41,297 nt of DNA from positions 1 to 41,297 of the forward strand of contig JAEEOY010000127.1 of the NCBI GenBank assembly GCA_016284515.1, read 5' to 3'. Source of the DNA: Kiritimatiellia bacterium. GTDB lineage: Bacteria > Verrucomicrobiota > Kiritimatiellia > RFP12 > UBA1067. Positions 8,661 to 41,078 of the stretch are shown in pieces; the first letter of the stretch is position 1; every line of letters starts with the position of its first letter. A program made the position numbers and the translations under genes. Below the pieces are notes generated by a model, which had not been told where the DNA came from, ran no database searches, and saw only the letters and a program-made list of their open reading frames with translations.

Positions 8661-8693
8661 CGATAACGTGTGCCTCGCGAGGTTGGCACAGGA

Positions 8694-11177: not shown

Positions 11178-11183
11178 GCCGCC

Positions 11184-11192
11184 ATTATACCA
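11184..11192 (-). promoter_or_regulatory. Extended -10 promoter of the GH43 gene, predicted leaderless
   Basis: TGGTATAAT on the minus strand, 6 nt before the ATG at 11177. The surrounding sequence through the first codons resembles that of the GH97 gene at 25326. Confidence 0.7.
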
Positions 11193-11297
11193 AACCCCGC
11201 CGCCGAACGCACTAACCCAAATGGGGGTGCACGGGAAATTTCGGTTCTTGAAGGAGGTTGGCGACAGAAGGTCGGCGCAGGCATCGAAACCAACCGC

Positions 11298-11337
11298 ATA
11301 AAAAACGGCGCGGGGCGGCCGAATGCCGCTCCGCGTC
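11298..11337 (-). terminator. Rho-independent terminator after hndD
   Basis: On the minus strand, 14-nt arms (11337-11324 and 11318-11305) pair at 12 positions around a 5-nt loop. A run of six T (11304-11299) follows. It begins 27 nt after the hydrogenase stop codon. The 186-nt spacer that holds it (11178-11363) shows no gene. Confidence 0.85.
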
Positions 11338-11363
11338 GCTTTTCGTCTCTACGACGTCCCGTA

Positions 11364-13175: not shown

Positions 13176-13236
13176 GATTAAGATATTCCTTTCCTTTTCA
13201 AGGGGTTCGGGGATGGGTGGCATCCCCGTCCGTTCC

Positions 13237-15024
13237 TCACCCGTGGCTGATCGCGCCGAACTTGCACGTCGCCTCGCAGGCGCCGCACTTGACGCACTTC
13301 GCCGGGTCGATGACGTGGGGGTTCTTCACAGTGCCGGAGATCGCGCCCGCCGGGCACTTCCTCGCGCACATCGTGCAGCCCTTGCACTTCGCGGGGTCGA
13401 TCTTGTACTGGATGAGCTTCGAGCACTTTCCGGAACGGCACTTCTTGTCCTTGATGTGCTCCATGTACTCGTCCATGAAGTAGCGGAGCGTCGAGCGCAC
13501 CGGGTTGGAGGCCGTCTGGCCGAGGCCGCAGAGCGAAGCCTTGTTCATGGCGTCGCAGATCGCCTCCATGTCCTTGATGTCCTGCTCGGTGCCGCGTCCG
13601 TCGGTGATCTTCTTCAGGTAGTTGAGGAGCTTCCTGCCGCCGATGCGGCACGGCGCGCACTTGCCGCAGCTCTCGTCGACCGTGAAGTCGAGGTAGAACT
13701 TCGCGATGTCCACCACGCAGTCCGTCTCGTCCATGACGATGAGTCCGCCCGAGCCCATGATCGAGCCGATCTTGGCGAGCGACTCGTAGTCGATCGGGGT
13801 GTCGAGGAACTGGGGCGGGATGATGCCGCCGGAAGGACCGCCCGTCTGGGCCGCCTTGAACTGGTGGCCGCCGCGGATGCCGCCGCCGATGTCGAAGATG
13901 ATCTCGCGGAGCGTCGTGCCCATCGGGACCTCGATGAGGCCAGAGTTGTTCACCTTGCCCGTGAGCGCGAAGACCTTGGTGCCCTTCGTCGTCGCCGTGC
14001 CGATCTTCGAGAACCACTCCGCGCCCTTGTTGATGATGACGGGGATGTTCGCGAGCGTCTCGACGTTGTTGATGACCGTCGGACGGCCCCAGAGGCCCTT
14101 GACCGCCGGGAACGGAGGACGGGGCTTCGGCATGCCGCGGTTGCCCTCGATGGACTGGAGGAGCGCCGTCTCCTCGCCGCAGACGAACGCGCCTGCGCCG
14201 AAGCGGAGCTCGATGTCGAACGAGAAGCCCGAGCCGAGGATGTCGTCGCCGAGGAGGCCGAGCTCGCGCGCCTGGCCGATGGCGACCTGGAGGCGGTGGA
14301 TGGCGAGCGGATACTCCGCGCGGATGTAGATGAAGCCCTTCGACGCGCCGATCGCGTAGCCCGCGATCGTCATCGCCTCGAGGATCGAGTGGGGGTCGCC
14401 CTCAAGCGTGGAGCGGTCCATGTACGCGCCAGGGTCGCCCTCGTCGGCGTTGCAGACCATGTACTTCTGGCCCTTGGGCTGCTGCTGGGCGAACTTCCAC
14501 TTCATTCCGGTCGGGAAGCCCGCGCCGCCGCGTCCGCGCAGGCCCGACTTGAGCATCTCCTCGACGACCTGCTCGGGCGTCATCTCGAAGAGCACCTTCT
14601 CGATCGCCTTGTAGCCGTCGCGAGCGATGTAGTCCTCGATCTTCTCGGGGTCGATCACGCCGCAGTTGCGGAGCACGATGCGGTACTGCTTCTGGTAGAA
14701 CGGGATGTTCGCCTCGGCGACAAGCTTCTTCGCCTGCTCGGGGTCGTAGCAGAGACGCTGCACGACGCGTCCCTTCACGAGGTGCTCCGCGACGATCTCC
14801 TTGACGTCGTCTTCGCGCACCTGCACGTAGAACGTTCCCTGCGGAAGTATCTTGACGATCGGGCCCTGCTCGCAGAAGCCGAGGCAGCCTGTCGTCACGA
14901 CCTGCACCTTCTCCTTGAGGCCGGCGGACTCGAGCTCGCGCGCGAACGCCTCGACGATCTTGTCGCCGCCACCGGAACAGCACGCAGTGCCGCCGCAAAC
15001 CAGTACATAAGATTCGTATGCCAT
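13237..15024 (-). CDS. hndC: NADH-binding flavoprotein subunit of hydrogenase, NuoF-like HndC
   Basis: The protein has 595 aa. An N-terminal thioredoxin-like 2Fe-2S domain has C10, C15, C47 and C51. The NuoF core has the FMN/NADH site GRGGAGFPTG (164-173) and CNADEGDPGAYMDR (191-204), and a 4Fe-4S site at C453, C456, C459 and C499. A C-terminal ferredoxin domain has two 4Fe-4S motifs (C547-C557, C577-C587). This is the expected domain order for HndC/HydB, the subunit that exchanges electrons with NAD(P)H and, in bifurcating complexes, with ferredoxin. It starts 15 nt after hndB with an AAGGGGAG ribosome site. Confidence 0.95.
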   Translation of the reverse strand: MAYESYVLVCGGTACCSGGGDKIVEAFARELESAGLKEKVQVVTTGCLGFCEQGPIVKILPQGTFYVQVREDDVKEIVAEHLVKGRVVQRLCYDPEQAKKLVAEANIPFYQKQYRIVLRNCGVIDPEKIEDYIARDGYKAIEKVLFEMTPEQVVEEMLKSGLRGRGGAGFPTGMKWKFAQQQPKGQKYMVCNADEGDPGAYMDRSTLEGDPHSILEAMTIAGYAIGASKGFIYIRAEYPLAIHRLQVAIGQARELGLLGDDILGSGFSFDIELRFGAGAFVCGEETALLQSIEGNRGMPKPRPPFPAVKGLWGRPTVINNVETLANIPVIINKGAEWFSKIGTATTKGTKVFALTGKVNNSGLIEVPMGTTLREIIFDIGGGIRGGHQFKAAQTGGPSGGIIPPQFLDTPIDYESLAKIGSIMGSGGLIVMDETDCVVDIAKFYLDFTVDESCGKCAPCRIGGRKLLNYLKKITDGRGTEQDIKDMEAICDAMNKASLCGLGQTASNPVRSTLRYFMDEYMEHIKDKKCRSGKCSKLIQYKIDPAKCKGCTMCARKCPAGAISGTVKNPHVIDPAKCVKCGACEATCKFGAISHG

Positions 15025-25427: not shown

Positions 25428-27446
25428 TTAGTCTTCGTCGGAGGCGTCGGGATCCTTGAGCTTCACGCCGAGGTCCCTGAGACGAATCGTCACGAGCTCT
25501 TCGGCCGACGGATCGGCGAGTTCGGTGACGCGAAGCGACTGACGCTCAACGGACTTCTCGAACAGGTTCCTCGCCCAGCGCGCGTTGCCGAAGTTCTTGT
25601 CGCGCTTCTCGGTGAGCATGGAGATGTACGGAAGAAGCCAATTCTCCGTGTCGGCCGACAGTTTATACTTCGCCTTCTTCGCCATCGAGCGGTATACTTC
25701 CGCAAGTTCCTTTGCGCTGTAGTCGGGAAACTCCACCGTCCTGTTGAAGCGGCTTTCGAGTCCGGAGTTGATCTCCATGAAGCGCTTCATCTCGGCCTTG
25801 TATCCGGCGATGATCACCACCATCGATCCGCGCGCGTCCTCCATGCGCTTCAGCAGCGTCGCCACGGCCTCTGCTCCGTACTGGTCGTTCTCGCCCTGGT
25901 TGAGCTGGTACGCCTCGTCGATGAAGAGGATGCCGCCCATAGCGGAATCGATAAGCTTGTTCGTCTTCGCCGCCGTCTGGCCCTCGTACTTCGCTACGAG
26001 CCCCGAGCGGTCGGTTTCGACGAAATTCGCCCTATCCAGCACACCCAGTGCGCGGAACGCCTTGCCGAGTATGCGCGCAACTGTCGTCTTGCCCGTGCCG
26101 GGATTGCCGGTGAACACGAAGTTGTAGCTCATCGTGACGTTGTTTTCGAGGCCCTTCTCGGTGCGCATCTTGTTCGCGCGCACCGTCGCGACGAGACGCC
26201 GCACTTCGTCCTTCACGGGCTGGAGCCCCACGAGCGCGTCTAGTTCCGCAAGCACGTCCTCGATCTTCGGCGCGCGGATGTCCTCCTTCTTCTCGCCTGC
26301 GGAGAGGTCCGAGAGCGCTAGCGTCTTCAACGCCTCGGCGTCCATGTCACCAGACTCCGCGAGCCGCGTCGCCTGGCGCGCGGTTGCGTCCTCGAAGAGC
26401 TGACGGACGAACCTGGCGTTGCCGAAAGTGCGGTCACGCTTCGCCGTGAGCTTCGCGATCGCCGCGTCGAGTCCCTCGTCGAGATCCGGCGCGAGCACGA
26501 ACTCGTTCTTCTTCGCCATCGAGCGGAATATCGCAGCGAGCTCTGGCGCCGTGTAGTCGGCGAATTCTATCGTCTTGGGGAATCGGCTTCTGAGTCCGGA
26601 GTTGGCGTCTAGGAAGTCGCGCATCTCGTCCGTGTAGCCGGCCGCGATGACAATGAGCTTGTCGCGATCGTCCTCCATGCGCTTCAGGAGCGTCGCGATC
26701 GCCTCCTTGCCATAGTCGTCTCCGTCACCGCTCACAAGCTGATATGCCTCGTCGACGAAGAGGATTCCGCCAATCGCCTCGTCTATCTTCTCGTTCGTCT
26801 TGACCGCGGTTTCGCCCGCGTAGCGTCCGACTAGTCCGGAGCGGTCCGTCTCCACAAGCTGGCCCGTCTTCGCGATTCCGAGCGCGCGGAACGCGCGCGC
26901 GACGATGCGCGCGACGGTCGTCTTGCCCGTGCCGGGGTTGCCGGTGAAGACCATGTGGTATGTCATCGGCGGGACCTTGAGTCCCTGCGCGCGGCGCGCC
27001 TCGTTGACCTTCGCGAGGTTGACGATCTTCTTTACCTCGGACTTCACCTCCTCGAGTCCGACAAGCGAATCAAGCTCCGCGAGGACTTCCTCCACGGACT
27101 CGACCTGGTTCGTGGACTGCGTATCGCTTTTCGCGCCTTGAGGTCCGTTGTTCGTGGCTGGTGGTTCGTCTGTTTCGGACGTGTCGAGCGAGATCGGACA
27201 CACAAGCGCGAACGCGAGGCAGACGAGCATGCCGATCGGACCGATCAGGACACGCGCCCACTGCGGCGTCCGTTCGTTGAAGACGGCGATGCGGATGATC
27301 CACACCGGGATCGTCATCAGCATCATGTAGATGATCGCGGAAACAGCGCAGTCCTCCGAAAACGCGAGGACGAGCACCACGAACAGCGCGACGTCGACCA
27401 GACATCCGAATCCGATCGACGCCGCGTTCTTGCCAGATATGTTCAT
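25428..27446 (-). CDS. Membrane-anchored double AAA+ ATPase, CbbX/SpoVK-like
   Basis: The protein has 672 aa. Three hydrophobic segments (about 14-30, 34-54, 66-84) anchor it. A linker (85-115) is polar. Two similar AAA+ modules of the CbbX/SpoVK type follow: Walker A GNPGTGKTT at 169-177 and 447-455, Walker B ILFVDE at 228-233 and ILFIDE at 506-511. Each module has an EVLAELDSLVGL-like entry and a FGNARxxR sensor/arginine region. CbbX-type ATPases remodel protein complexes; EccA of type VII secretion belongs to the same branch. It starts 3 nt after the FHA gene and is certainly in its operon. Substrate and role are unknown. Confidence 0.88.
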   Translation of the reverse strand: MNISGKNAASIGFGCLVDVALFVVLVLAFSEDCAVSAIIYMMLMTIPVWIIRIAVFNERTPQWARVLIGPIGMLVCLAFALVCPISLDTSETDEPPATNNGPQGAKSDTQSTNQVESVEEVLAELDSLVGLEEVKSEVKKIVNLAKVNEARRAQGLKVPPMTYHMVFTGNPGTGKTTVARIVARAFRALGIAKTGQLVETDRSGLVGRYAGETAVKTNEKIDEAIGGILFVDEAYQLVSGDGDDYGKEAIATLLKRMEDDRDKLIVIAAGYTDEMRDFLDANSGLRSRFPKTIEFADYTAPELAAIFRSMAKKNEFVLAPDLDEGLDAAIAKLTAKRDRTFGNARFVRQLFEDATARQATRLAESGDMDAEALKTLALSDLSAGEKKEDIRAPKIEDVLAELDALVGLQPVKDEVRRLVATVRANKMRTEKGLENNVTMSYNFVFTGNPGTGKTTVARILGKAFRALGVLDRANFVETDRSGLVAKYEGQTAAKTNKLIDSAMGGILFIDEAYQLNQGENDQYGAEAVATLLKRMEDARGSMVVIIAGYKAEMKRFMEINSGLESRFNRTVEFPDYSAKELAEVYRSMAKKAKYKLSADTENWLLPYISMLTEKRDKNFGNARWARNLFEKSVERQSLRVTELADPSAEELVTIRLRDLGVKLKDPDASDED

Positions 27447-27449: not shown

Positions 27450-28406
27450 TTATGCAGGCTTGGTGGGAAGCTTGAGCCCGGGCTTCATGCCGGGCTTCGG
27501 GGGAAGCTTGAGACCCGTAGGTATGGAGCCCTTCGGCGGAAGCTTGAGCCCTGTCGGCATCGCCCCGGGCTTGGTGGGAAGCTTAAGACCAGGCTTGAGA
27601 CCGCCCTTCGAGCCGGGAAGCGTCGGACGGCGCAGAGCCGTCCCGCCCGGACGCGGCGCGCCGGCAGGCGCGGCAGGCTTCGCCTCGTCAACGGGCTTGA
27701 GCTCCTCGACAGGAGTGAGCTCCTCAAGCGGCGTGAGTTCGGCCACCGGAGTCAGTTCCGCGACCGGAGGCAGCGGCTCAACCGGCTTTAGCTCCTCCAC
27801 CGGAGCAAGCGGCTCAACCGGCTTTAGCTCTTCGACAGGCGCGAGCGGCTTTACGGGCGCGGGCTTGGGCTCGGGCTTGGCGGGCGCGATCGGGGAAAGC
27901 GGGGAAACGGGCTTCACGACCTCGGCAGGCTTGACCGGCTCAACTGGCGCGACGGGCTTCGGAGTGAGCTCGGTCTTGCGCGGGGTGAGGAGCGAGGGCG
28001 TGTTGGGGCGATGAGGCTCGACGAGCTTCACGACCGTCGGGGCTACCGCCGGAATCGGCTTGGGCGCCGCGGCGTCCGCAGCCGTCATGGGCGCGATGGG
28101 GTCGCCGGCCTGGAAATCGAAAGACGCAATCTCCATGAGACCGCAGCGGATGGAATCGCCCTTCTCGATCTTCTCGGGGGCCTCGATCTTGACGCGGTTG
28201 CGGTAGGTGCCGTTCGTGCTGCCAAGATCCTCGACATACCAGTCGCCGTCTCTGAAGAAGATGCGAGCGTGGTGGCGCGAGAAGCCGTCCACGTTGATGG
28301 GCGCAATCGTGTTGCCGATTTCGCGCCCGATTGTTATCACTGCGGACTGGTCAAAGGTGTACCCAAGGTAGATACCCTTGATGTTTGCGATGAATTGAAT
28401 CTTCAT
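27450..28406 (-). CDS. FHA-domain protein with long proline-rich repeat tail
   Basis: The protein has 318 aa. Residues 1-100 form a forkhead-associated domain: IGRE (26-29), GFSRHHARI (41-49) and DLGSTNGTYRN (60-70), the phosphothreonine-binding loops. Residues 105-318 are disordered-looking, with PVEELKP-type repeats (189-240) and GLKLPxKP-type repeats (270-318). There is no signal peptide or membrane segment. It is cotranscribed with the AAA+ gene, and I infer that it links that ATPase to phosphorylated partners. No kinase gene for FHA recognition is in the window. Confidence 0.88.
   Translation of the reverse strand: MKIQFIANIKGIYLGYTFDQSAVITIGREIGNTIAPINVDGFSRHHARIFFRDGDWYVEDLGSTNGTYRNRVKIEAPEKIEKGDSIRCGLMEIASFDFQAGDPIAPMTAADAAAPKPIPAVAPTVVKLVEPHRPNTPSLLTPRKTELTPKPVAPVEPVKPAEVVKPVSPLSPIAPAKPEPKPAPVKPLAPVEELKPVEPLAPVEELKPVEPLPPVAELTPVAELTPLEELTPVEELKPVDEAKPAAPAGAPRPGGTALRRPTLPGSKGGLKPGLKLPTKPGAMPTGLKLPPKGSIPTGLKLPPKPGMKPGLKLPTKPA
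27453..27842 (-). repeat. Coding repeats in the FHA protein tail
   Basis: Degenerate repeats encode PVEELKP/PVAELTP units (27687-27842) and four GLKLPxKP units (27453-27599), separated by an APRPGG linker region. Confidence 0.8.
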
Positions 28407-28416
28407 GGTATTAGCA

Positions 28417-28445
28417 ATTATAGCACAATTCAGGACGGGTGGCAA
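28417..28445 (-). promoter_or_regulatory. Promoter of the FHA-AAA operon
   Basis: TTGCCA, a 17-nt spacer and TATAAT with a TGC extension are read on the minus strand. The box ends 10 nt before the FHA ATG, so the leader is at most a few nucleotides. It is the best-matching sigma-70-type promoter in the window. Confidence 0.75.
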
Positions 28446-30772: not shown

Positions 30773-31582
30773 CTACTGAACTTCCACGGACATCGGACGC
30801 GGATGCGGGACGCGCGCGTATTCGACGGCGGGAACGCCGAAGAGGAGAACGGCTCCGACTTCGTACCCGCGCGGCATATTGAGCGCCTTGCGAATGCCGC
30901 GCATGCCCTTGAACGCATGGACGCCAAATCCGCTCCAGCACGTGCCGAGTCCGTTCGCCTGCGCCAGAAGGTCGAAGTAGCTTAGCGCGATCCACGGATC
31001 CGCCTCGCGGCACGGAGCCTTTTTCGGCGTCGACGCAACAATCATGCACGGAGCATTGCGGAACACGACATCGTCGCCACGCATGATTTCAGCCATGTAG
31101 CGGCGAAACTTCGGGAAAAGAATCTGCGGTATGCGCGTGCGGACAAGCTTCTGCAATGTCCTTGCGACCTCCCGCCTATACCAGTCCATCTTCTCGCGGC
31201 CTCGGACAATCGTGAAATGGAGCCGATGGTCGTTGCATCCCGTCGGCATCCAGGCGAGCGTGTCGACAAGCCGTGTCCAGACTTCCTCCGGAATCGGATC
31301 GTCGCGCCACTGGCGAGTGCTCCGCCGCTGGCGGAGAAGCGCCGCCTCGGCTCGTCCGTCTGGAATCTGCTCGACATCTAGCGTTTCGCCGAAGCCTACG
31401 TCATTGCAGGTGACGGCGCCATGTGCGCACACCGCGAGGCAGTGCTGGCAATTCAGGCAGAACCGCTCGTCCTCCTTTCGGAACGCGGGATATCCGTCCT
31501 CGCCCTTCGTCAGGACGTGGACGATGCAGTCCCGCATGCAGGCTCCGCAGCGGACGCATTTGGATTTATCTATAACTATCAT
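30773..31582 (-). CDS. Ferredoxin-nitroreductase fusion flavoprotein
   Basis: The protein has 269 aa. The N-terminal 65 residues hold two 4Fe-4S motifs (CVRCGACMRDC and CLNCQHCLAVC). The rest is a nitroreductase-family FMN domain, starting RQRRSTRQWRDDPIPEE and ending with a PRGYEVGAVLLFG segment. Such fusions pass electrons from low-potential donors to small or lipid substrates, for example in double-bond reduction. It is the last gene of the seven-gene operon, overlapping the SDR stop by 17 nt, with a good GGAGGA site before its ATG. The substrate is unknown. Confidence 0.9.
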   Translation of the reverse strand: MIVIDKSKCVRCGACMRDCIVHVLTKGEDGYPAFRKEDERFCLNCQHCLAVCAHGAVTCNDVGFGETLDVEQIPDGRAEAALLRQRRSTRQWRDDPIPEEVWTRLVDTLAWMPTGCNDHRLHFTIVRGREKMDWYRREVARTLQKLVRTRIPQILFPKFRRYMAEIMRGDDVVFRNAPCMIVASTPKKAPCREADPWIALSYFDLLAQANGLGTCWSGFGVHAFKGMRGIRKALNMPRGYEVGAVLLFGVPAVEYARVPHPRPMSVEVQ

Positions 31583-32537
31583 GGCGGAATTCCTCCATTC
31601 CCATCTTGTCGAACCAGGCGAGCATGCGCGCGTTGCTGAAGTCGAGGTTGTGCGCGACCGTGTCAAGCGCATACAGCGTCGGATCAAACAGCGGATTATT
31701 GCGATTGCGCGAAAGAAACGTAGAGAACCGCGCAACAGGACGAATCGCCCACATCGGAATGCTGCATTCGCGCAGGCGCTTCCCCGGCAGGAACTCCGCG
31801 GCAAGCTCGCGGTAGTATTCGCCCAATGTCGTCCGCTTCGAATCGAGAACCGTCACGCCTTCCCCTCCCGCCTCCGGCAGAATCATCGCGGCGTGGAGCG
31901 TGCGGCAGACGTTTTCCACATGGGCGAGCGGCCAGCGGTTGCGTCCGCGCCACTTCCCGAAATGGAACACAAGCGGCGAGTTCTTGAGGTACGCAACCGT
32001 GCGCGGCGTGATGGAAGTGTCGCCGCGTCCGTAGACGACGCACGGCCTTACGCAGCTGAAACGCTCGCGCGGCAGATTCGCCGCGAGCCACTTCTCGGAA
32101 AGAATCTTGTACTTCGGATACGGATTCGTCACCGTTTCGTCGAAGGCAAGCGCTTCCTCGCTCTCGCCGTTGAAATCGTGAAGGCCGTAGACGTCCGCGG
32201 TGGAAAGATAGACAAACCTCTTCACTCCATGCTCCATCGCCGCAGACGCAAGATTCTTCACGGCTTCGTAGTTCGCCTCGCGGAACCATTCGTCGCGTCC
32301 GACGTCGCTCGCCCGTGCGGCGACATGGACGACGAAGTCGATCTTGTCCTCGAACAGCCGCGGCAGATTCGCCGCGTCCGCGAGATCGATCTTGATCGTC
32401 TTGATTCCAAGCCGAGTCAACCGCTCCGCGACACGGTTACGCACCGTGCCTATTACGCGATACCCCGCTTTCGCGAAGTATTCGGCGGCGTTCGACCCGA
32501 TGTACCCGCCCGCACCTGTTATAAGAACAGTTTCCAT
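31566..32537 (-). CDS. NAD-dependent epimerase/dehydratase (extended SDR)
   Basis: The protein has 323 aa. The Rossmann motif is GAGGYIG (8-14), with DLADA, HVAARASDV and the catalytic pair Y140/K144 (YPKYK). It is in the extended SDR family of nucleotide-sugar epimerases and lipid ketoreductases. The bacterial ceramide pathway uses an atypical SDR of this epimerase-like type as reductase. In an operon led by an SPT-like gene, I infer that it reduces a 3-keto lipid intermediate. A sugar epimerase remains possible. It starts 3 nt after the ThiL-like gene. Confidence 0.88.
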   Translation of the reverse strand: METVLITGAGGYIGSNAAEYFAKAGYRVIGTVRNRVAERLTRLGIKTIKIDLADAANLPRLFEDKIDFVVHVAARASDVGRDEWFREANYEAVKNLASAAMEHGVKRFVYLSTADVYGLHDFNGESEEALAFDETVTNPYPKYKILSEKWLAANLPRERFSCVRPCVVYGRGDTSITPRTVAYLKNSPLVFHFGKWRGRNRWPLAHVENVCRTLHAAMILPEAGGEGVTVLDSKRTTLGEYYRELAAEFLPGKRLRECSIPMWAIRPVARFSTFLSRNRNNPLFDPTLYALDTVAHNLDFSNARMLAWFDKMGMEEFRHDSYR

Positions 32538-32540
32538 AAT

Positions 32541-33467
32541 CTACACCCAAAGCGAAGTCCAGTATGATGCCGTTTCCGTGAGCCAGTTCTCGCGCGGGAT
32601 CGAGCGGTAGTCAGGCGGCGGAGTGGACATGCGGCCGGTCTTTCCGCCGTACATGATGCGGAAATCGCACGCATCCTCCGCGGCAAATCCGCCGCGTCCG
32701 ATCTTCACGGCATCTGCGACGGGCGTTCCGGCGGGAACGGCGAACACAAGCTCGTATTCGCCAACTCCACCGACGAGCGCCCAGCCCTTCTCCACTCCCG
32801 GCGGAAGACTCCGCGTAACTTCCGGCGAAACGGCGCGATCCGCATCCAGCTCAAGCCACATCCCGTTATTGACGCGGCGGAAGTTCTCCAGCGCGTCGAA
32901 AAGCCCGCCGCTCGTATCCGTCGCGAAAAGCGCCGAACCCGGCACGGGCGCACGAAGCTGCGGCTCGGGGATCGCACGGCCAAGAAACACAGCCGCGTTC
33001 GCCGCACCGAGCGGACCTGTCGCATACAAATCGAAATCTACGCGCTGCGACGCCATGCGGCAAACCGGCGTTTTGCATGTCGCGAAAACCGTTGCCGTCC
33101 AGCACCACTCCTTCGCCGTGCCTACATCGCCGCCGATGACCTTTGCGCCGTAGTGCGACACGACCTGCTGGACGCCCTGTGCGACGCGCTCATAGAACCT
33201 TTCGTCGTGCAAGTCGTCTATGTTCCACACCTGGACAATAAACTCCGGATTCGCCCCGCAGGCGAGGATGTCCGCAATCGCGCCATACGCCATCACCCTT
33301 CCCATGGCCTCCGGCTCAAGGCCGGAGAGGAAATCCTCGCGTTCGGAAAAGGAATCCGTCGAGACGAGTAGATTCGTTCCTTCAAATGGAACTACCTCCG
33401 CATCCGACCCAAAAGGCCGGGTGCCGTGAATGCGGGAAAATACTTCTATCAGCTTCTGTTCTTGCAT
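32541..33467 (-). CDS. ThiL / AIR-synthase-superfamily protein
   Basis: The protein has 308 aa. LLVSTDSFSEREDF is the Asp-rich metal/nucleotide start of the ThiL/PurM/SelD fold. MAYGAIADILACGANPEF and KVIGGDVGTAKEW follow in the expected order, and a second AIR-synthase C domain is recognisable (ATDTSGGLFDAL). These proteins form or use phosphates with ATP. No thiamine, purine, selenium or hydrogenase-maturation gene is adjacent, so thiamine-phosphate kinase is doubtful. I chose the ATG at 33467 because AAGGAG sits 7 nt upstream; the ATG at 33473 is too close to it. It overlaps the kinase gene by 19 nt. Confidence 0.78.
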   Translation of the reverse strand: MQEQKLIEVFSRIHGTRPFGSDAEVVPFEGTNLLVSTDSFSEREDFLSGLEPEAMGRVMAYGAIADILACGANPEFIVQVWNIDDLHDERFYERVAQGVQQVVSHYGAKVIGGDVGTAKEWCWTATVFATCKTPVCRMASQRVDFDLYATGPLGAANAAVFLGRAIPEPQLRAPVPGSALFATDTSGGLFDALENFRRVNNGMWLELDADRAVSPEVTRSLPPGVEKGWALVGGVGEYELVFAVPAGTPVADAVKIGRGGFAAEDACDFRIMYGGKTGRMSTPPPDYRSIPRENWLTETASYWTSLWV

Positions 33468-34330
33468 CTGCATTCTCCTTCATTCTGGGACACCACAAGG
33501 CGCAGACGGTTTTGGAACAAATCGACCGACCCCGGCAGCGAACCATGAGGGTCGCCGTCGTATTCAATCGCGACGGGCACATTGGACGAGATTGCCGTCT
33601 TGCCGCGAAGGACGCGGATTTCTCCGCAGGGCTTGCCGCGATACAGATTCCAGACAATCCGCAAGCATCCGAAACGCGAAACATGCTTCGCAAACCAAAG
33701 CGCGTACTCGTCGTCGGCAATCGGGGGCAACGCAATTTTGAGTCCACCGGCGATGCGCGGCATTCGCGTAACGAGCGCATGGGCGACATTGCGTATCTCC
33801 TCGCCGTTCACCATGATGTCATAGCGTCTGCCGCGCACGACTTCGCGCAGAACAGCCCAGAGCGTTCCTATAAAGTCGCCAAACTTCGGGCGCATCCGAT
33901 TGGCAGAAGCGGCGACAGCCGCCCCCATTCCCAAGTTCATTGAACAGAAGAACGGAACGCCGTTTGCCGTAAGAACTGGAATCTCACGCACCGCGCCATT
34001 GCGCAAGAGGGCGATTGCCTGTTCCGCATCCGTCGGGATGCCATGCGCACGGCAGAAGTCTGGACTCGTGCCGGCATAGATGACGCCGAACTTAATCGAC
34101 GTGTCCGAATTCTCCAGAACTCCGCCAGCCACGGCGTTGATTGTTCCGTCGCCTCCACAAGCGACTACTGCTTCATATCCCTTAGCCTCGCGCGCAAGAC
34201 GCGACGCTTCCTCAATGTTCTTAAGGACTACAAACTCCCCTTCCGGCAGCAACTCACGAAGGCGCGGCAAAATGCGGACGGAGCGTCCGCCGTGCGAAAG
34301 CGGATTGACCAAAACGAGAAATCGTTTCAT
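33449..34330 (-). CDS. Diacylglycerol/sphingosine-kinase-family lipid kinase
   Basis: The protein has 293 aa. The N-terminus MKRFLVLVNPLSHGG and VACGGDGTINAVAGG (GGDGT at 59-63) mark the DAGK catalytic domain, a family that includes DgkB, YegS, sphingosine and ceramide kinases. Later VAIEYDGDPHG matches the conserved second-domain DG(E) region. A GTSPDF segment replaces the usual GTGNDF, an Asn-to-Pro change in the nucleotide-site loop. It probably phosphorylates a lipid hydroxyl at the inner membrane. The ATG overlaps the radical SAM stop (ATGA). Confidence 0.88.
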   Translation of the reverse strand: MKRFLVLVNPLSHGGRSVRILPRLRELLPEGEFVVLKNIEEASRLAREAKGYEAVVACGGDGTINAVAGGVLENSDTSIKFGVIYAGTSPDFCRAHGIPTDAEQAIALLRNGAVREIPVLTANGVPFFCSMNLGMGAAVAASANRMRPKFGDFIGTLWAVLREVVRGRRYDIMVNGEEIRNVAHALVTRMPRIAGGLKIALPPIADDEYALWFAKHVSRFGCLRIVWNLYRGKPCGEIRVLRGKTAISSNVPVAIEYDGDPHGSLPGSVDLFQNRLRLVVSQNEGECRCKNRS

Positions 34331-35571
34331 CTGTAGATTCCCATTTTGTCGTAAACCTTCGTCGGCGTGCCGCCCTTCCATCCTGAAACGAGTTTCTCCG
34401 TCTCTGTCCAAGGAAGAGGAAGTCTATCGCCCGACTTAGAGGCGATTTCGGCGGCGCGGCGCTCGCACGTCCACTCCTCGCACGGCACGGCAAACGCCTT
34501 GCGCATCCGCGCATACGCAGTCTCGAACGGCACTTCGTTGAGATTCCCGAAAGAGATGTTCACGAACTCGCAGGGCTGGACGTCTCCGTTCGCGCCCACG
34601 TAGAAGCGGTCGATTCCGCCGCAGCAGCATCCGAGCATCTCCGCGGACTCCTCGTAGACCTGCGCCGTGAGAATCGTCGGAATGCGCGACTTGGCGGAAT
34701 TGTAGTGCCGCTGCGCGGCGCATGCGACGCGGACGGCTTCTGCGTGGAGCGACTTGTCGAATGCCTTGCCCATCCACGCTCCGCATGCCTTCGGATGGAT
34801 AAGCTGGATGTAGTCGCAGTTGTTTTCCGCGGCAAGGTCCATGATGCGGTCGATTCCGCCGTCAACCACCTCGCGGTCGGAAAGCACCGTATTGAACCCG
34901 ACAAGCATTCCCGCCTCGCGGCAGTCGCGCAGGAAATCGAGCGCGCGGCGCCACGATCCGGCTACTCCCGTGAACGCATCGTGCGCTTTCTCGTCGACGG
35001 AGTGGATGGACGACATTATGCCTGTCACCTTCAGTTCCGCGAGACGGCGAATCTTCTCCGGCGTCGCGCCGCGTCCCGTCGAATTGACCCACACCTCAAG
35101 TCCCGCGATTTCCGCGAGAACCGCCTCAAGGCGTTCGAATCGGAGAAGCGGTTCGCCGCCTTCGACAGCCCACGCGACGATGCCGAAGTCGCGCATCTTG
35201 CGGACGTTCTCAATGAGCGCAGGAAGTGGCATTTCGTGCGGATCGTCCTTGCGCTGGTAGCAGTGCGGGCACTTGTACGCACACGCCTTCGAAATAGAGA
35301 GAACGACGCTGACGGGGCGCGGCGGACGGCAGATGACCTTGTCCTCAAGTGCAGTGAAGAACGCCTGGGACGGATAGCGCGGCAGATAGAAGTCGAGCTT
35401 GTATTCGCCGGACGCGAGGCGCTTCAGCTTGTGCTTAAAGAAGATGCGCGTCAGCTGCGACGCCTTCATGAGCGCGGCGGGATGACGCCAATACCGCCAT
35501 GCGCACGCAAGCGACATGCGGACATAGAAGAGAAACTTCCGGAATCCCGTTATGTTCTCATTCCTTTTCAT
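34327..35571 (-). CDS. Radical SAM protein with SPASM-like C-terminus
   Basis: The protein has 414 aa. The radical SAM motif is CAYKCPHC (C97, C101, C104), preceded by a basic, partly hydrophobic N-terminal region of about 85 residues. WAVEGGEPLL is the GGE motif. The C-terminal third has many Cys: GCCCGG, NGDVQPCEF, FGNL and CEEWTCE, the layout of a SPASM domain with auxiliary iron-sulfur clusters. SPASM enzymes often modify peptides, but no precursor peptide gene fits in this fully overlapping operon, so a lipid or small-molecule substrate is more likely. The ATG lies 14 nt before the UbiA stop. Confidence 0.88.
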   Translation of the reverse strand: MKRNENITGFRKFLFYVRMSLACAWRYWRHPAALMKASQLTRIFFKHKLKRLASGEYKLDFYLPRYPSQAFFTALEDKVICRPPRPVSVVLSISKACAYKCPHCYQRKDDPHEMPLPALIENVRKMRDFGIVAWAVEGGEPLLRFERLEAVLAEIAGLEVWVNSTGRGATPEKIRRLAELKVTGIMSSIHSVDEKAHDAFTGVAGSWRRALDFLRDCREAGMLVGFNTVLSDREVVDGGIDRIMDLAAENNCDYIQLIHPKACGAWMGKAFDKSLHAEAVRVACAAQRHYNSAKSRIPTILTAQVYEESAEMLGCCCGGIDRFYVGANGDVQPCEFVNISFGNLNEVPFETAYARMRKAFAVPCEEWTCERRAAEIASKSGDRLPLPWTETEKLVSGWKGGTPTKVYDKMGIYR

Positions 35572-36487
35572 CGTTGTACCAGAGGAAGAGAAGCTGGATG
35601 GCGACAAGGGAGACGATGGCATAGAGCCAAGTCGCCGCAATAAAATGCAAGAGCAGCATAAGAACGCACAACTGACAATTCAGGCAAGTCGCACGGTGAA
35701 ACATATAATGCGAGACCTGGCGCTGGAATTCGATGACAAGCGCGACAACAATGACCGAAAGAACGAAAAATTCAACATTGAACCATGAAAGGAAATTCAA
35801 GCGCAGCACAGCAAGACATGGATAGCATACGGAAACGAACAGCGCGACTCTCGGCCATATTGTCTGAAGCGTTCGTACTCCAGCCGCACGATCACCCTCT
35901 ACGTCTTTGAAATAGCTGTTGTGGCACATCAGAAAATGAGCAGGCACAATCCAATCCCCGACAAATTCCAGCTCCGGGCCATTCGGACAGCGCCCTGCAA
36001 TGCCAGCAATCGCGAACAGCGCACAACACGAAATGGCGTAGGCGTAGACAAGGCAATTCAATACTGGCACACGCTTGAGGAGCGAATACGCGATGTTCAA
36101 AACGCCGCCAAGCGCGAGGAACGCAAGCGTCCACGGTGACATCAGATACCCGGCGACCGCGATAGCGGCAAGTCCTACGGCGGAAACCGCAAACGCCGGA
36201 AGCGGTTTGAGCGCACCCGTCACCATCGGACGGTGCGGCGCGTTGATCGCATCCTCCTTCCTGTCGCACCAGTCGCTGAAGATCTGGTTGAAGCCCCAGG
36301 CGAAGAACCCCATCGCAAGAAGCCCCGCATCGCGCAACGTCCACGGAAAGTCGTTTAGCGTCCAGGACAACTTAAGCTCGTTGTAAGTGCCATGCGCCAG
36401 GCACAGCCCCGCCAGCACGGTCGTCGCGGTGACGAATCCGTAGTAGAGCCGCATCGAGCGGAGGTAGTAGTAGAGAAACTTCAGCAC
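35558..36487 (-). CDS. UbiA-family prenyltransferase
   Basis: The protein is 309 aa if started at the GTG at 36487, which overlaps the stop of the SPT gene and has AAGGGCG upstream; an ATG at 36454 is the alternative. It has about eight to nine membrane helices. The first Asp-rich motif is NQIFSDWCDRKEDAIN (67-82) followed by PHRPM. The second is NSYFKDVEGDRAAGVRTL. This is the UbiA superfamily, which transfers prenyl groups to aromatic or glycerol-phosphate acceptors in the membrane. No quinone or chlorophyll genes are near, so the acceptor may be the lipid made by this operon. Confidence 0.9.
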   Translation of the reverse strand: MLKFLYYYLRSMRLYYGFVTATTVLAGLCLAHGTYNELKLSWTLNDFPWTLRDAGLLAMGFFAWGFNQIFSDWCDRKEDAINAPHRPMVTGALKPLPAFAVSAVGLAAIAVAGYLMSPWTLAFLALGGVLNIAYSLLKRVPVLNCLVYAYAISCCALFAIAGIAGRCPNGPELEFVGDWIVPAHFLMCHNSYFKDVEGDRAAGVRTLQTIWPRVALFVSVCYPCLAVLRLNFLSWFNVEFFVLSVIVVALVIEFQRQVSHYMFHRATCLNCQLCVLMLLLHFIAATWLYAIVSLVAIQLLFLWYNDEKE

Positions 36488-37665
36488 TTAAGCGCCCTTG
36501 CAATAACATCCGCGGCTTCGTCGATGATTTCGGTCGTATGCGCGGCGGTTACGCTGGTGCGGATCAGAGCGGCGCCCTCGGGTGTTGCAGGCGGAATGAA
36601 CGGATTCACGAACACGCCTTCGTCGAACATCTTCCTTGCGGCCGCGCAAGTCTCGTACGTGCCGCCCGCCTGTATCGGTATTATCGGCGTGAAGCGGCGC
36701 ATGGCAGGCTCCAGCACCGGCAGTCCGCGCGATGCGAACGCAGTGCGCGTGTATTCGGATATCGAACGCAGCTTCGCCACCAGCTCCGGATGCTGCTTCA
36801 GGTATCTCAACGCGGCGAGCGCTGCGGCCGCGCTCGCGGGAGGCACCGAGGCGGAGAACACGAACGGGTAGGACGAATGGCGCAGGAAGTCGATTACCTC
36901 GCGCTTCCCGGCCGCAAAGCCGCCGAGCGAGGCGAGGGACTTCGAGAACGTTCCCATGACGATATCCACGTCCGCGTCGAGTCCGAAATGCGACGCCGTG
37001 CCGCGTCCGCCATCGCCAAGGACACCAAACCCGTGCGCGTCGTCGACCATCACGGCGGCACCGTACTTCTTCGCCAGTGCGCAGATGTCGGGGAGGTTGG
37101 CGATGTCTCCGTCAACGGAGAACACACCGTCAACCACAACAAGCGCCCCCGCGCCAGACGGCACCGAGGCAAGGCGCGCCTCTAGCCCCGCCATGTCGTT
37201 GTGCTTGAAGCGGAGCATCTTGCCGAGGCACATGCGGGCGGCGGAATAGATGCTCGCGTGGTTGTCGACGTCGCAGACAAGATAGTCGTGGCGTCCGACG
37301 AGCGCGCTTATGACGCCGAGGTTCGTCTGGAAGCCGGTGCCGAACGTAATCGCGTCCTCCTTGCCGACGAAGTCCGCGAGTTCGCGCTCAAGCTCGAGAT
37401 GGAGGTCAAGCGTGCCGTTGAGGAAGCGCGAGCCGGAGCAGCCCGTTCCGTACTTCTCGACCGCCTTGACGGCGGCCTCCATGACTTCAGGACAGGCCGT
37501 GAGGCCGAGGTAGTTGTTGGAGCCCAGCATGATGCGGCGCTTGCCCTCCATCACTACGACGGCGTCCTGCCGGGACTCAAGCCGGTGGAAATACGGATAG
37601 ACCCCCGCCCTACGTGCATCCTCTGCACGAGTGTCGGCAACACATTTTTCAAAAATCAGCTTCAT
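36481..37665 (-). CDS. Serine-palmitoyltransferase-like alpha-oxoamine synthase
   Basis: The protein has 394 aa. GVYPYFHRLESRQDAVVVM and IMLGSNNYLGLT (45-56) are closer to bacterial serine palmitoyltransferases than to BioF or Kbl in my reading. Active-site features are H136 (DNHASIY), D208 and H211 (MVDDAHG), and PLP lysine K242 in GTFSKSLASLGG. Such enzymes condense an amino acid with an acyl-CoA or acyl-ACP with loss of CO2; serine plus palmitoyl gives 3-ketosphinganine. It leads the seven-gene operon. Kbl or BioF activity cannot be excluded from sequence alone. Confidence 0.88.
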   Translation of the reverse strand: MKLIFEKCVADTRAEDARRAGVYPYFHRLESRQDAVVVMEGKRRIMLGSNNYLGLTACPEVMEAAVKAVEKYGTGCSGSRFLNGTLDLHLELERELADFVGKEDAITFGTGFQTNLGVISALVGRHDYLVCDVDNHASIYSAARMCLGKMLRFKHNDMAGLEARLASVPSGAGALVVVDGVFSVDGDIANLPDICALAKKYGAAVMVDDAHGFGVLGDGGRGTASHFGLDADVDIVMGTFSKSLASLGGFAAGKREVIDFLRHSSYPFVFSASVPPASAAAALAALRYLKQHPELVAKLRSISEYTRTAFASRGLPVLEPAMRRFTPIIPIQAGGTYETCAAARKMFDEGVFVNPFIPPATPEGAALIRTSVTAAHTTEIIDEAADVIARALKC

Positions 37666-37802: not shown

Positions 37803-40800
37803 CTACTCGACTCTGACGCGGAAGAAGAAGGCGTCGCTGGCGTCGTCGGGCGGGACGGCCAAGAGGCGCACGCGGTCGCCGGCGGGGGAATCGATCCAGA
37901 CCTCGACATCGACGCCGGCCGGGGAGAATTCGTCCGGTTCGGGCGTCTCGGCGCCTTCGACTAAGAAGGCCTTCATCAGGTTCTCCAGAAGCGTCTTCTC
38001 CGTCACGGCCGCGGACGAGCCGATCTCCACGCCGTCGATTTCGACTTCGAAGGCGAAGGCCCCCGCATTGTCCGCCGGCCCGAACGCGACAATGCGCACG
38101 TCATCGCTTCCGAAGTCGTCCGGCAGGAGCGTGTCGGACCCCAACGCGAACGAAAGCCACGCGTGCGGCGATTCGCGGACGGCCGCCGCGCCGGCAAGCG
38201 CGGCGCCGCCCGTCAGTTTCACGGCCTGCGCCCAGGCGCGGTAGGCCGAATACGCGTCGGCGTCGGCGACGTGTTCGACGAGGGCGGAGTCGGCGGAGCC
38301 GGCCAGCGACGAGGCGATCCGCTCCGGCGCGGCGTCGGCGGAAAGCTCGGGAATCGGATTGCCCGGCGGCGGCGCGATCCAGCCGAGCTCGACCGAGCGC
38401 AGGACCGTGACGTTCGTGCACTGCGGATGGAAGTCGTACTCCGGTTCGCCGTACCAGAGCATGCCCACCTGCGAGCTGAAGTCGTAGCCCTTCTTCCAGA
38501 ATTCGTAGACGTCGCAGAGTCCGTCGTTGTCGCCGGCCTCCTTGTCCGCGTCGGCGTCGCCGCTCCACCAGCCCCACGTGGAGGAACACAGGAAGATGCC
38601 GCCCCGCCGATAGGAATCCGGGAGGTCGTAATAACCGTCGCCCGACCCGTCCTCCATCCACCATTCGTCGCCGTAGCACGGATCGACCATCCATGCGTCG
38701 GTGTGGTAGAATCCGCCGTCGAGGGAATCGTAGTATTCGGCCGCCACGGCCCAGCCGATTTCGGAGGCGGAAAGCGAGCGGTCGACGTTTTCGCCGCGGG
38801 CGCGGCGCTGCGCGCGGACAGCATCCATGTGCGCCGAGACGCGGCCCGCGAGGTCGAACGACGCGGCGGCGGCTCGCGCCGCGTCGCGGCTCTTGAAGAG
38901 GCCGGCGGAGTGGCAGGCGTCGACGATCACGGCGACCTTGACGCCGGCCGGAAACGCCGCGAGGTCGTCCGCGATCTCGTAGTCGTTGTAGGCCGTCGTG
39001 TTGTCGTAGTAGTCTTCATCGTAGACGCAGAGGAAGGTCGCCTTGCCGGTTTCGTTGGTGATGAGGTCGCCGGTCGTGTCGTTGAACTGCCCGCCGTGCG
39101 AGGAGTGCTGGTAGACGAACGTGTCGCCGGAAACCACCTGCGCGGCGATGTTCGAGATTGCGCCGCGGATCGCGGACTTGGTCGCCTGAGAGTCGAGCAG
39201 GACAGTCATGTTCGCCGCGTCCCATCCGCCGCGCTCCTCGAGGTTCGCAGCCATGAACTTCGCATCGTTCACGCAGCCCGCCAGACTGGAGATATGCGCG
39301 TATTCGTTGATGCCGACGCACAACGCGAACTTCTTCGGCGCGAACGCGACGACGGAGAAGCTTGCCTGTGCGGGGCCGTTGGCATTGACGGCCGTAATGG
39401 TGAAGGAATACGTTCCGACGGCCTCCGGCGTGAAGGAGAGCAGGCCGTCCTCCAGCACGGCCGACGAGTCGCCTTCCGTTATTTCGAGAGAGGTGACGGG
39501 CGCTTCCTCGGGGGCGCCGACGCGGATGGTCGCCGTTGCGGTCTGGCCGACCGGGACGGCGATGTCGCCGATGGAACGGATGCTCGGCGGGGCCGACGGA
39601 TCCGCGACGAGCGTGACCTCCACCGTTTCGGAGAAGGGCCCGGGGCCATTCCCGACGGCGCAGACGCGCCAGTAGTACGTGCCGGGAATCAGTCCGTCCA
39701 CCGTGAAGGAGGTGCCGGTAACCGTCTGCGAGAACTGGAAGTCGGGCTCGCCCCCCACCCCGAAGACGTTGTTGGACACGGCGAGGAGGTAGGACGTCGC
39801 GCCGGCGACAGCGTCCCAGCTGGCGGTGAAGGAGGAGTCGGTGAGGCCGGAGCTGGCGAGGCCGGAAGGGGCGGCGAGGACGGCCGAGACCGCCATGGTC
39901 GCCTTGGCGGAGGCCCCGGCGGTGGCATTGGTCGCGCGGAACGAAAAGGAGAATTCGCCGTCGCTCGCGGGGGTGAAGGTGAAGTCTGCGCCGTCCAGCG
40001 AGTAGGTGCCCGACGGAGCCGTGGCGGACTCGACCGAATAGGAGATGGAGCCGGCGACGCCGGCCAGGTTGGTGGCGACCAGGGTATAGTCGAGCGGTTC
40101 GCCGACGGTCGCGGTCTGCTCCGGAATCGGGACGAACCGGACGTCCGAGGGCGGTTCGTCGCCGACCCAGCCGGCGCGGACGGACCGGAGGACGTCCGTG
40201 TTGAAGCACTGGGCCTCGGTGTAGTCCTCGGTGCCGGGCGGGCCTTCTCCGACCGCGATGTCCTTGGCGTAGTTCCAGAGCTCGTAGAAGTTCGCGTAGC
40301 CGTCCTCGTCGCCGCACGGGGCGACGTCGCAGGCGCCGGTGCGCCAGCCCCGGTTCGCGGCCAGCGTGAACTCGCCGCCGACTTCGTCCTCGGAATCGAA
40401 GCTGTACTGGAAGTAATCGGCCGCCGTGACCCAGCCGATTTCGGAGGAGGAGATCCCCTTCGGCCTGGAGCCGCGCCGGACGGGCTCCTTCGCGCGGATC
40501 GCGTCGATTTCGGCGCCGACGCGTTCGGCCAGGGCGAACGGGGCGGGTGCTGGGCTCGCGGCCGCTGAACGGGCGCGAGCGCGGTGCTTGTCCTTGAAGA
40601 GGCCGGCGGAGTGGCAGGCGTCGACAAACACGACGACCTTCGCGCCGCTCGGGAACTTCGCGAGGTCGGCGGCGAGCTCGTAATCCGCGTAGTCGCCGTC
40701 GTAGGCGCAGAGGCCGGTGTCGGCCGTATAGGCGCCGGTTTCGTCCTCCTCGCTCCAGCCGTGCGACGAATGCGTGTAGACGAACACGTCGCCGGGGGCG

Positions 40801-41078
40801 GCCGCGGCCGCGGCGTTCGTGATCGCGTCGCGGATCGCGTCCTTCGTGGCGGCACCGTCCAGCAGGAGCGTCGCGCTCCCAGGCGTCCACTCGCCGCGCT
40901 GCGTGAGGTTGGTCCACAGGTTGCCGGCGTCCGCCACGCAGCCCCGCAGCCAGTCTTTGCGGGGGACGTAGTCCGTGTCGTACTCGTTCACGCCGACGCA
41001 GACGGCGACATGCGCCGCGGAGGCGGCGGCGGCGAACGAGACGGCAAGCGCAACTCCTGCACATGCTGAAAGCTTCAT
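37803..41078 (-). CDS. Secreted protein with two caspase-like (C14) domains
   Basis: The protein has 1091 aa. A signal peptide (1-22) ends in AAASAA. Caspase-like domain 1 spans about 23-300 with dyad H106 (HSSHG) and C155 (DACHSAGLF). Residues 310-400 look like an Ig/cadherin-type domain, 403-490 a fibronectin type III domain, and 495-580 another Ig-like domain. Caspase-like domain 2 (582-900) repeats the pattern with H661 and C722. The C-terminus (about 905-1091) is unassigned. Both dyads are intact. The protein is predicted to act in the periplasm or outside. A GGAGGAAA site precedes the ATG. Local G+C is much higher than in the neighbouring operon. Confidence 0.9.
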   Translation of the reverse strand: MKLSACAGVALAVSFAAAASAAHVAVCVGVNEYDTDYVPRKDWLRGCVADAGNLWTNLTQRGEWTPGSATLLLDGAATKDAIRDAITNAAAAAAPGDVFVYTHSSHGWSEEDETGAYTADTGLCAYDGDYADYELAADLAKFPSGAKVVVFVDACHSAGLFKDKHRARARSAAASPAPAPFALAERVGAEIDAIRAKEPVRRGSRPKGISSSEIGWVTAADYFQYSFDSEDEVGGEFTLAANRGWRTGACDVAPCGDEDGYANFYELWNYAKDIAVGEGPPGTEDYTEAQCFNTDVLRSVRAGWVGDEPPSDVRFVPIPEQTATVGEPLDYTLVATNLAGVAGSISYSVESATAPSGTYSLDGADFTFTPASDGEFSFSFRATNATAGASAKATMAVSAVLAAPSGLASSGLTDSSFTASWDAVAGATSYLLAVSNNVFGVGGEPDFQFSQTVTGTSFTVDGLIPGTYYWRVCAVGNGPGPFSETVEVTLVADPSAPPSIRSIGDIAVPVGQTATATIRVGAPEEAPVTSLEITEGDSSAVLEDGLLSFTPEAVGTYSFTITAVNANGPAQASFSVVAFAPKKFALCVGINEYAHISSLAGCVNDAKFMAANLEERGGWDAANMTVLLDSQATKSAIRGAISNIAAQVVSGDTFVYQHSSHGGQFNDTTGDLITNETGKATFLCVYDEDYYDNTTAYNDYEIADDLAAFPAGVKVAVIVDACHSAGLFKSRDAARAAAASFDLAGRVSAHMDAVRAQRRARGENVDRSLSASEIGWAVAAEYYDSLDGGFYHTDAWMVDPCYGDEWWMEDGSGDGYYDLPDSYRRGGIFLCSSTWGWWSGDADADKEAGDNDGLCDVYEFWKKGYDFSSQVGMLWYGEPEYDFHPQCTNVTVLRSVELGWIAPPPGNPIPELSADAAPERIASSLAGSADSALVEHVADADAYSAYRAWAQAVKLTGGAALAGAAAVRESPHAWLSFALGSDTLLPDDFGSDDVRIVAFGPADNAGAFAFEVEIDGVEIGSSAAVTEKTLLENLMKAFLVEGAETPEPDEFSPAGVDVEVWIDSPAGDRVRLLAVPPDDASDAFFFRVRVE

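Follow-up and report, generated by a model that had tools for sequence, protein, structure and literature searches.

A widely conserved operon with an alpha-oxoamine synthase: a candidate pathway for an undescribed bacterial lipid

The stretch of DNA analysed here, 41,297 nucleotides from a Kiritimatiellia bacterium of the gut and referred to throughout as the window, lies in contig 77 of a genome of 3.86 Mb in 292 contigs. Its minus strand carries seven genes arranged as one tight unit, which an earlier note, made from the sequence alone, had put forward as a candidate lipid pathway led by a serine palmitoyltransferase (SPT). Pfam searches bore out the families named there and the places of all seven genes on that strand, given here from the first gene of the operon to the last.

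36481..37665, minus strand: SPT-like alpha-oxoamine synthase, 394 amino acids (aa) (NF047600, solved structure 3a2b, trees)
35558..36487, minus strand: UbiA-family membrane transferase, 309 aa from a GTG start (PF01040, 89 bits)
34327..35571, minus strand: radical SAM/SPASM protein, 414 aa from the ATG at 35571 (PF04055, PF13186)
33449..34330, minus strand: lipid kinase of the diacylglycerol/sphingosine kinase family (DAGK), 293 aa from the ATG at 34330 (PF00781, PF19279)
32541..33473, minus strand: ThiL-like kinase of the PurM superfamily, 310 aa (TIGR01379 thiL, 90 bits)
31566..32537, minus strand: extended short-chain dehydrogenase/reductase (SDR), 323 aa (PF01370, 118.7 bits)
30773..31582, minus strand: 2[4Fe-4S] ferredoxin domain fused to a nitroreductase-family flavoprotein, 269 aa from the ATG at 31582 (PF00881, 67.3 bits; 4Fe-4S domains)

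The open frames of the radical SAM, DAGK and nitroreductase genes exceed the likely gene lengths as listed, and refined starts were picked by gene overlap and upstream sequence. With these starts the genes, described earlier as stitched together by overlaps, do overlap at five of the six junctions (SPT/UbiA by 7 nt, UbiA/radical SAM by 14, radical SAM/DAGK by 4, DAGK/ThiL by 25 and SDR/nitroreductase by 17), the exception being a 3-nt gap between the ThiL-like and SDR genes. A promoter scan found no sigma-70-like site immediately before the SPT gene in the direction of the operon, and returned five sites in the region against a shuffle mean of 2.2. Hidden Markov models built from the related loci described below matched no acyl carrier protein (ACP), ketosynthase, flavoenzyme of the Old Yellow Enzyme (OYE) type, MMPL exporter, dehydratase-like protein or small membrane protein in window frames of at least 50 aa at E 1. 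Pfam found no GNAT protein among the seven, the genome as a whole not having been searched for a ceramide synthase.

Related loci were sought with the radical SAM protein as the only bait. A scan of a genome contig collection with its alignment matched 147 stretches, 135 of which encode relatives, and the best 80 of these 135 were kept (L124 and L125 are excluded from the 80-locus tables); collapsing loci whose radical SAM proteins are at least 80% identical left a non-redundant set of 49. Gene families were called with models trained on these same loci, at E 1e-6 for core families and 1e-5 for others, and may include generic paralogues, for example a minus-strand SPT in L057, a ThiL in L089 and an SDR in L110; loci cut by contig ends were retained, and gene absences are therefore partly artefacts. 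All six core families nevertheless occur together in 45 of the 80 loci and in 29 of the 49 non-redundant ones, with individual counts among the 80 of 80 for radical SAM, 74 for DAGK, 70 for UbiA, 68 for the ThiL-like protein, 63 for SDR and 61 for alpha-oxoamine synthase. The complete sets carry 12 phylum labels, mostly those of metagenome-assembled genomes (MAGs), some of which may be misbinned: Lentisphaerota (16 loci), Verrucomicrobiota (6), Elusimicrobiota (5), Kiritimatiellota, Rifleibacteriota, Auribacterota and Omnitrophota (2 each), and Pseudomonadota, Fidelibacterota, Bdellovibrionota, Ignavibacteriota and Fibrobacterota (1 each). The labels of five further complete sets name no phylum; one of the five is titled Riflebacteria. 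The co-occurrence that the earlier note had looked for in other genomes is thus wide, and the range it had expected, the PVC group and Bacteroidota, was too narrow.

The nearest relatives of the radical SAM protein (95-98% identity) lie in MAGs titled uncultured bacterium, Verrucomicrobia, Lentisphaerae or Kiritimatiellae, some of them from goat and roe deer. Within the phylum, 32 of 288 genomes gave a radical SAM match at E 1e-20, and in 13 the match was close (at least 45% identity). UbiA and DAGK genes lie beside the close radical SAM gene in all 13, the window's own genome included, and a ThiL-like gene does so within short flanks in 11. The UbiA profile matched 15 of the 288 genomes, among them all 13 with a close radical SAM protein, the two additional matches covering only 81 and 230 of 326 positions. 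Distant radical SAM homologues (at most 29% identity) served as a control: all 17 that were fetched have none of the other six genes within about 1.5 kb on either side, or as far as the contig reaches. Locus conservation and the empty flanks of these distant homologues together reject a chance neighbourhood, and we regard it as nearly certain that the operon is a real, conserved pathway. Mobile origins were considered as well and rejected: a viral scan gave two weak radical SAM loci at 24 and 23% identity, and all 72 matching plasmid records fell below 60% identity, one of them covering 80% of the protein at 23%.

Two cases in the collection merit separate mention. L076 and L079 are two copies of the cluster on separate contigs of one Alphaproteobacteria genome (PG1894_72), and L106:1-2800, labelled as a Thermoplasmatota archaeon, holds only the radical SAM, UbiA and small membrane protein genes, begins at a contig end and may be misbinned.

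Compared with a larger cluster found elsewhere, the set of seven genes is a reduced one. The gene order UbiA, OYE-type flavoenzyme, ACP, alpha-oxoamine synthase, DAGK, ThiL-like kinase, FabF-like ketosynthase, SDR, radical SAM is common to six loci (L109, L113, L119, L120, L122 and L123), and the Riflebacteria loci L091, L098 and L099 add an MMPL exporter (HAE3/HpnN-like in the one protein tested) and, beside the ACP, a putative dehydratase-like protein, a label that we base on its DH...HGPTFQ pattern; NCBIfam gave no match for the one member tested. Among the 80 loci, ACP occurs in 17, ketosynthase in 16, MMPL in 9, OYE in 33 and nitroreductase in 14, and where ACP and synthase are both present they adjoin in 8 of 13 non-redundant loci. 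The absence of an ACP, which the earlier note had pointed out, accordingly holds for the window and for other reduced forms, not for the clusters in general. The ferredoxin-nitroreductase, counted there as a member of the set, is likewise present in the window and in a minority of loci, an OYE-type enzyme standing in its stead in many others; the two never share a locus. In the radical SAM tree one switch accounts for this distribution, and their mutual exclusion therefore records a single historical event rather than repeated evidence. A C-terminal CxxCNxC cysteine cluster is conserved in the OYE family, the nitroreductase has an N-terminal 4Fe-4S ferredoxin domain, and from these motifs both look like iron-sulfur flavoenzymes.

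Further genes were observed within or beside these clusters. An ATPase with AAA_14/DUF4143 domains at L047:6814-8148 lies between the DAGK and ThiL-like genes as an insertion into the operon, and related open frames of about 400 aa occur in L048, L049, L052, L053 and L054, six loci in total. A conserved membrane-type protein of about 125 aa (PPNHxGY..ANRNLIxYG) stands beside the radical SAM or UbiA gene in L080, L086, L088, L092, L106, L116, L119 and L123; the one member run, from L119, had no Pfam match.

The window synthase scores best against the NCBIfam model for SPT of the CFB type (NF047600, 493.9 bits, under its cut-off of 640), and its best solved relative is the SPT 3a2b, at 397.9 bits against 277.4 for the best entry that is not an SPT. 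It clusters with the SPT references of Parabacteroides and Roseomonas with support of 100/97 in a tree of 71 rows and 97 in a tree of 38, outside BioF and Kbl, so that the placement which the earlier note had named as refuting its reading did not come about; the solved-relative scores and both trees reject a BioF or Kbl identity. The genome's own synthase paralogue groups with a BioF reference in the 38-row tree. A capnine-type start is also rejected, the window synthase giving only 215.7 bits to the solved cysteate acyltransferase 28eh. The description of the operon as SPT-led holds, however, only in a single gut lineage to which the window is related: the 60 cluster synthases in the 71-row tree divide into the SPT lineage with 12 members, a second set with 37 and a third with 11, and a single clade for all of them is rejected (p-AU 0.0018, 38-row tree). 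The placement of these other sets is unsure, the second forming one supported branch in the 38-row tree that the 71-row tree does not recover, and the third being sister to Kbl in the 71-row tree and not in the other. The synthase lysine is present in all 60.

In the radical SAM tree, SPT-type loci are nested within loci of the second type, and the synthase type changes three times over the whole tree. Most simply, a true SPT would have taken the place of an earlier synthase while the operon stayed. Since it could take that place without loss of the operon, the product of the earlier enzyme is suggested to have been 3-ketosphinganine-like as well, although the product may have changed at the swap. 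In a Parabacteroides record (L128:3831-6188) and in a Roseomonas record (L133:2717-7050), the latter also with an ACP, genes of the SPT type and of the DAGK family are found near each other; no UbiA or radical SAM gene is annotated in the stretches shown, for which the gene table is incomplete.

The two kinases form a nearly constant pair in the operon. GGDGT is present in 73 of 73 DAGK homologues, the nearest solved proteins being 4wer and DgkB and sphingosine kinase 1 a much weaker match. The ThiL-like family profile matches solved ThiL over both domains at E 7e-34 (positions 36-288 of 326 on 5dd7), with GGD and D[TSI]SxG each in 65 of 66 homologues and EYEL in 62; D40, D47, GGD116, D186 and EYEL are invariant in 14 of 14. 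The genes are adjacent in 37 of the 38 non-redundant loci having both (60 of 66 when all loci are counted), as would be expected of consecutive steps. Enzymes with a DAGK_cat domain phosphorylate lipid alcohols, and ThiL converts a phosphate monoester to a diphosphate. It is somewhat more probable than the converse that the two enzymes act in succession to yield a diphosphate.

The UbiA profile finds digeranylgeranylglyceryl phosphate (DGGGP) synthase 6m31 as its nearest solved relative (E 5.9e-16), ahead of chlorophyll a synthase (3.3e-11), and Foldseek also places 6m31 first by E-value, ApUbiA having the higher TM-score (0.66 vs 0.55). The window protein alone matches best the NCBIfam models for PRK12884 prenyltransferase and BchG, ahead of the model for geranylgeranylglyceryl phosphate (GGGP) geranylgeranyltransferase. 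Its second and third motifs are intact, with Y134, K138 and the residues of K194-D195-x-x-G198-D199 invariant in 14 of 14. UbiA adjoins the radical SAM gene in 30 of 41 non-redundant loci, and in L072, L073 and L075 the two are fused in one frame of about 725 aa; L041 and L042, from the same contigs as two of these three, show the fusion too. The radical SAM protein retains CxxxCxxC in 79 of 79 homologues and SPASM cysteines C315, C334 and C369 in 14 of 14, its PF13186 match being barely over threshold. Its structure model (pLDDT 90.1) has SkfB, SuiB, viperin-like proteins, DesII and BlsE as nearest folds at a TM-score of about 0.5, which speaks to the class level only. DesII carries out vicinal amino-alcohol chemistry, and the modelled resemblance may be taken as a hint, not as evidence. 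The SDR, in which Y140 and K144 are invariant in 14 of 14, has as its best NCBIfam model OleD 2-alkyl-3-oxoalkanoate reductase (92.7 bits, cut-off 580).

Families, motifs, gene pairings and exchanges of enzymes, as read from the sequences, are most easily accommodated by an operon dedicated to an undescribed lipid. That the product is lipid or lipid-like and begun by an alpha-oxoamine synthase seems very likely; beyond this, we infer substrates, step order, direction of the UbiA reaction and product, and put the full scheme at a probability of roughly 0.4. The synthase, a true SPT in the window lineage, would join L-serine to a long acyl thioester, giving an amino-ketone of the 3-ketosphinganine type, which the SDR would reduce to a long-chain base (a 2-amino-1,3-diol). 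The DAGK-family kinase would then phosphorylate the primary alcohol derived from serine and the ThiL-like kinase would put on a second phosphate, producing a lipid diphosphate. UbiA would form a C-O bond between the activated chain and another hydrophobic partner, and the radical SAM/SPASM protein and iron-sulfur flavoenzyme, whether nitroreductase or OYE type, would modify the chain or its double bonds. A role of the long-chain-base diphosphate as UbiA donor is tentative, and rated above one of the long-chain-base phosphate as acceptor. On the same footing as the full scheme, diverse and mostly uncultured bacteria would possess a new lipid class, a long-chain-base diphosphate with a UbiA-joined second chain and radical SAM tailoring, mixing assembly of the sphingolipid type with coupling of the archaeal type. 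A phosphorylated or prenylated long-chain-base lipid, as first suggested, is compatible with these data.

Several observations weigh against this scheme, whose substrates and product are predictions. A long-chain-base 1-diphosphate is not allylic, and UbiA acting on that donor would therefore need unusual chemistry. Its first motif, NDxxDxxxD in the Methanocaldococcus jannaschii DGGGP synthase (N62, D66, D70), reads SDWCDRKED in the window, with Ser in place of Asn; among 70 UbiAs the D66 position holds D in 26, G in 33 and N in 10, one being unmatched, and 22 of the 26 that keep this Asp have Ser for the first Asn. The motif thus departs from the reference in nearly all members, leaving the donor site uncertain. 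The ThiL-like protein stays under the TIGR01379 cut-off (90 bits against 184.15), and the two kinase genes are apart in 6 of the 66 loci having both, five by an inserted gene and L111 by a different order. No ThiL over the cut-off was found anywhere in 10 of the 12 carrier genomes searched, the window's included, and in those ten the ThiL-like protein may serve in thiamine synthesis; in G037 and G043 a further ThiL, encoded elsewhere, passes the cut-off. The SDRs of L098, L109, L110, L111 and L119 share only 20-24% identity with that of the window. Finally, 10 of 10 scanned synthases of the second and third sets fall below every NCBIfam cut-off, with general BioF/Kbl-type models as their best matches. 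PMC11334938, which assigns sphingolipid potential to 38 phyla of the Black Sea, takes the view that SPT homologues placed beyond its SPT-like clade probably do not act in sphingolipid synthesis, and both sets may fall in the group set aside there.

The altered motif also bears on the closest rival, a hybrid prenyl-sphingoid ether lipid in which long-chain-base 1-phosphate would be the acceptor and UbiA would move a geranylgeranyl-type group onto its free secondary hydroxyl, the flavoenzyme saturating the prenyl chain and the ThiL-like kinase building a diphosphate head group. We consider this unlikely. In its favour, DGGGP synthase, the nearest solved UbiA, accepts a lipid phosphate whose secondary alcohol is free, and long-chain-base 1-phosphate would be laid out much like GGGP. 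According to PMC9385802, moreover, UbiA enzymes group by acceptor, and a ferredoxin-like partner increased the activity of an archaeal geranylgeranyl reductase. Such a route leaves the second kinase without clear need and relies on a motif that in DGGGP synthase lies at the donor metal site and is altered in most members; no prenyl-diphosphate synthase was found among 20 extra related-locus proteins scanned against Pfam. The presence of ketosynthase, ACP and alpha-oxoamine synthase in the larger clusters allows a quite different product, a small heterocycle or redox-active pigment, whose pyrrole-like ring would be formed by ketosynthase and synthase as in prodigiosin and whose hydroxymethyl arm would be doubly phosphorylated and transferred as in thiamine assembly. 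ThiL-type chemistry suits hydroxymethyl diphosphates, and three scanned ketosynthases match PigJ weakly (44-61 bits), but the same three match FabF far better (204-272 bits), and ketosynthase is confined to 16 of the 80 loci, the window's not among them. With a true SPT having replaced the synthase in the window lineage, and with UbiA and MMPL pointing to a hydrophobic product, a heterocycle is improbable.

About as little can be said for an ordinary sphingolipid variant, in which SPT, SDR and kinase would supply long-chain base phosphate for ceramide phosphate lipids, an N-acyltransferase being encoded elsewhere, and UbiA, ThiL-like and radical SAM proteins would belong to an unrelated, co-transcribed pathway. 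It would fit the proximity of SPT-type and DAGK-family genes in the Parabacteroides and Roseomonas records, the latter with ACP, and the ceramide phosphate of Caulobacter, made with a dedicated kinase according to PMC11324152. The six families, however, remain together through shuffling of their order and under 12 phylum labels, which speaks against two pathways having been paired by accident, and the synthase has been exchanged while the remaining genes stayed; we therefore give this variant a low probability. That the genes share no pathway at all, as mere housekeeping or chance neighbours, is scarcely credible in view of the conservation across loci and of the control, in which all 17 distant radical SAM homologues had empty flanks. 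Single genes could still have housekeeping roles, the cluster UbiA being the only one found in 4 of the 12 carrier genomes and other ThiL proteins being as scarce as noted above.

The proposed dedicated lipid pathway has partial counterparts in several known systems. Its opening by SPT and SDR, which the earlier note had likened to the start of bacterial sphingolipid synthesis, resembles that of the rhodobacterial ceramide genes (spt, acpR, aasR, cerR and cerS, with the Caulobacter ceramide kinase CC_1160), the SDR being a candidate counterpart of CerR, and a lipid kinase and, in some loci, an ACP extend the likeness. Unlike that set, the seven genes include no N-acyltransferase by Pfam, and they add a ThiL-like kinase, UbiA, radical SAM/SPASM protein and iron-sulfur flavoenzyme, none of which is named among the Caulobacter ceramide genes in the portion of PMC11324152 available; the note's view that UbiA, radical SAM and flavoprotein lie outside the known pathway agrees with this. 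Bacteroidetes SPTs, in the same source, use acyl-CoA instead of ACP. The sgaAB cluster of Pseudomonas fluorescens MYb115, as described in PMC12134224, offers another parallel in that a chain-building synthase supplies an alpha-oxoamine synthase with SPT function; there, however, sgaA is an iterative type I polyketide synthase in a cluster of two genes, whereas the loci studied here have, in some cases, a discrete ketosynthase, ACP and dehydratase-like protein, together with kinases, UbiA and radical SAM protein. The sulfonolipid (capnine) route, through cysteate fatty acyltransferase, likewise starts from an alpha-oxoamine synthase.

Archaeal diether lipid synthesis is approached from the other end, the UbiA having DGGGP synthase as its closest solved relative both in the profile search and by the E-values of Foldseek. 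Archaeal lipids are likewise tailored by a flavoenzyme and radical SAM enzymes. Unlike that route, neither GGGP synthase nor CDP-archaeol synthase was found among the seven genes and the 20 extra proteins scanned, the first UbiA motif is altered, and the backbone apparently comes from serine through the alpha-oxoamine synthase. Plants salvage phytol through phytol kinase VTE5, phytyl-phosphate kinase VTE6 and a UbiA-type transferase, and the proposed logic, two kinases turning a lipid alcohol into a diphosphate for a UbiA-type enzyme, would be the same, albeit with other kinase families and another lipid. No published description of the present gene combination was found in the open-access PMC literature, bioRxiv preprints being outside the scope of that search.

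The surroundings of the operon in the window were also recorded. Downstream lies a cysteinyl-tRNA synthetase gene, and directly upstream on the same strand (37803-41078, minus) a protein of 1091 aa with two caspase-like stretches (PF00656) and an fn3 domain; neither is counted as part of the operon. Farther away, a tandem AAA protein with AAA_lid_6 domains (25428-27446, minus) adjoins an FHA-domain protein with a Pro/Val/Glu-rich region (27450-28445, minus), and a NuoF-type subunit at 13237-15024 (minus) bears extra 2Fe-2S and 4Fe-4S domains, a set that we take to resemble those of electron-bifurcating hydrogenases. An open frame of 1503 aa at 8670-13181 (plus), facing long minus-strand frames and with no Pfam match, is probably a shadow frame.

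The occurrence of six-gene sets under 12 phylum labels implies that this pathway is old enough, or mobile enough, to matter. Should its product be a lipid, lipidomes of gut and anoxic environments should contain a recognisable class that is not yet assigned, with producers predictable from their genomes. As a corollary, an SPT gene would be active outside the ceramide pathway, and an SPT match by itself should not be read as a capacity to make ceramides. The operon would also offer a test case for the activation of a lipid alcohol by two kinases ahead of UbiA coupling.

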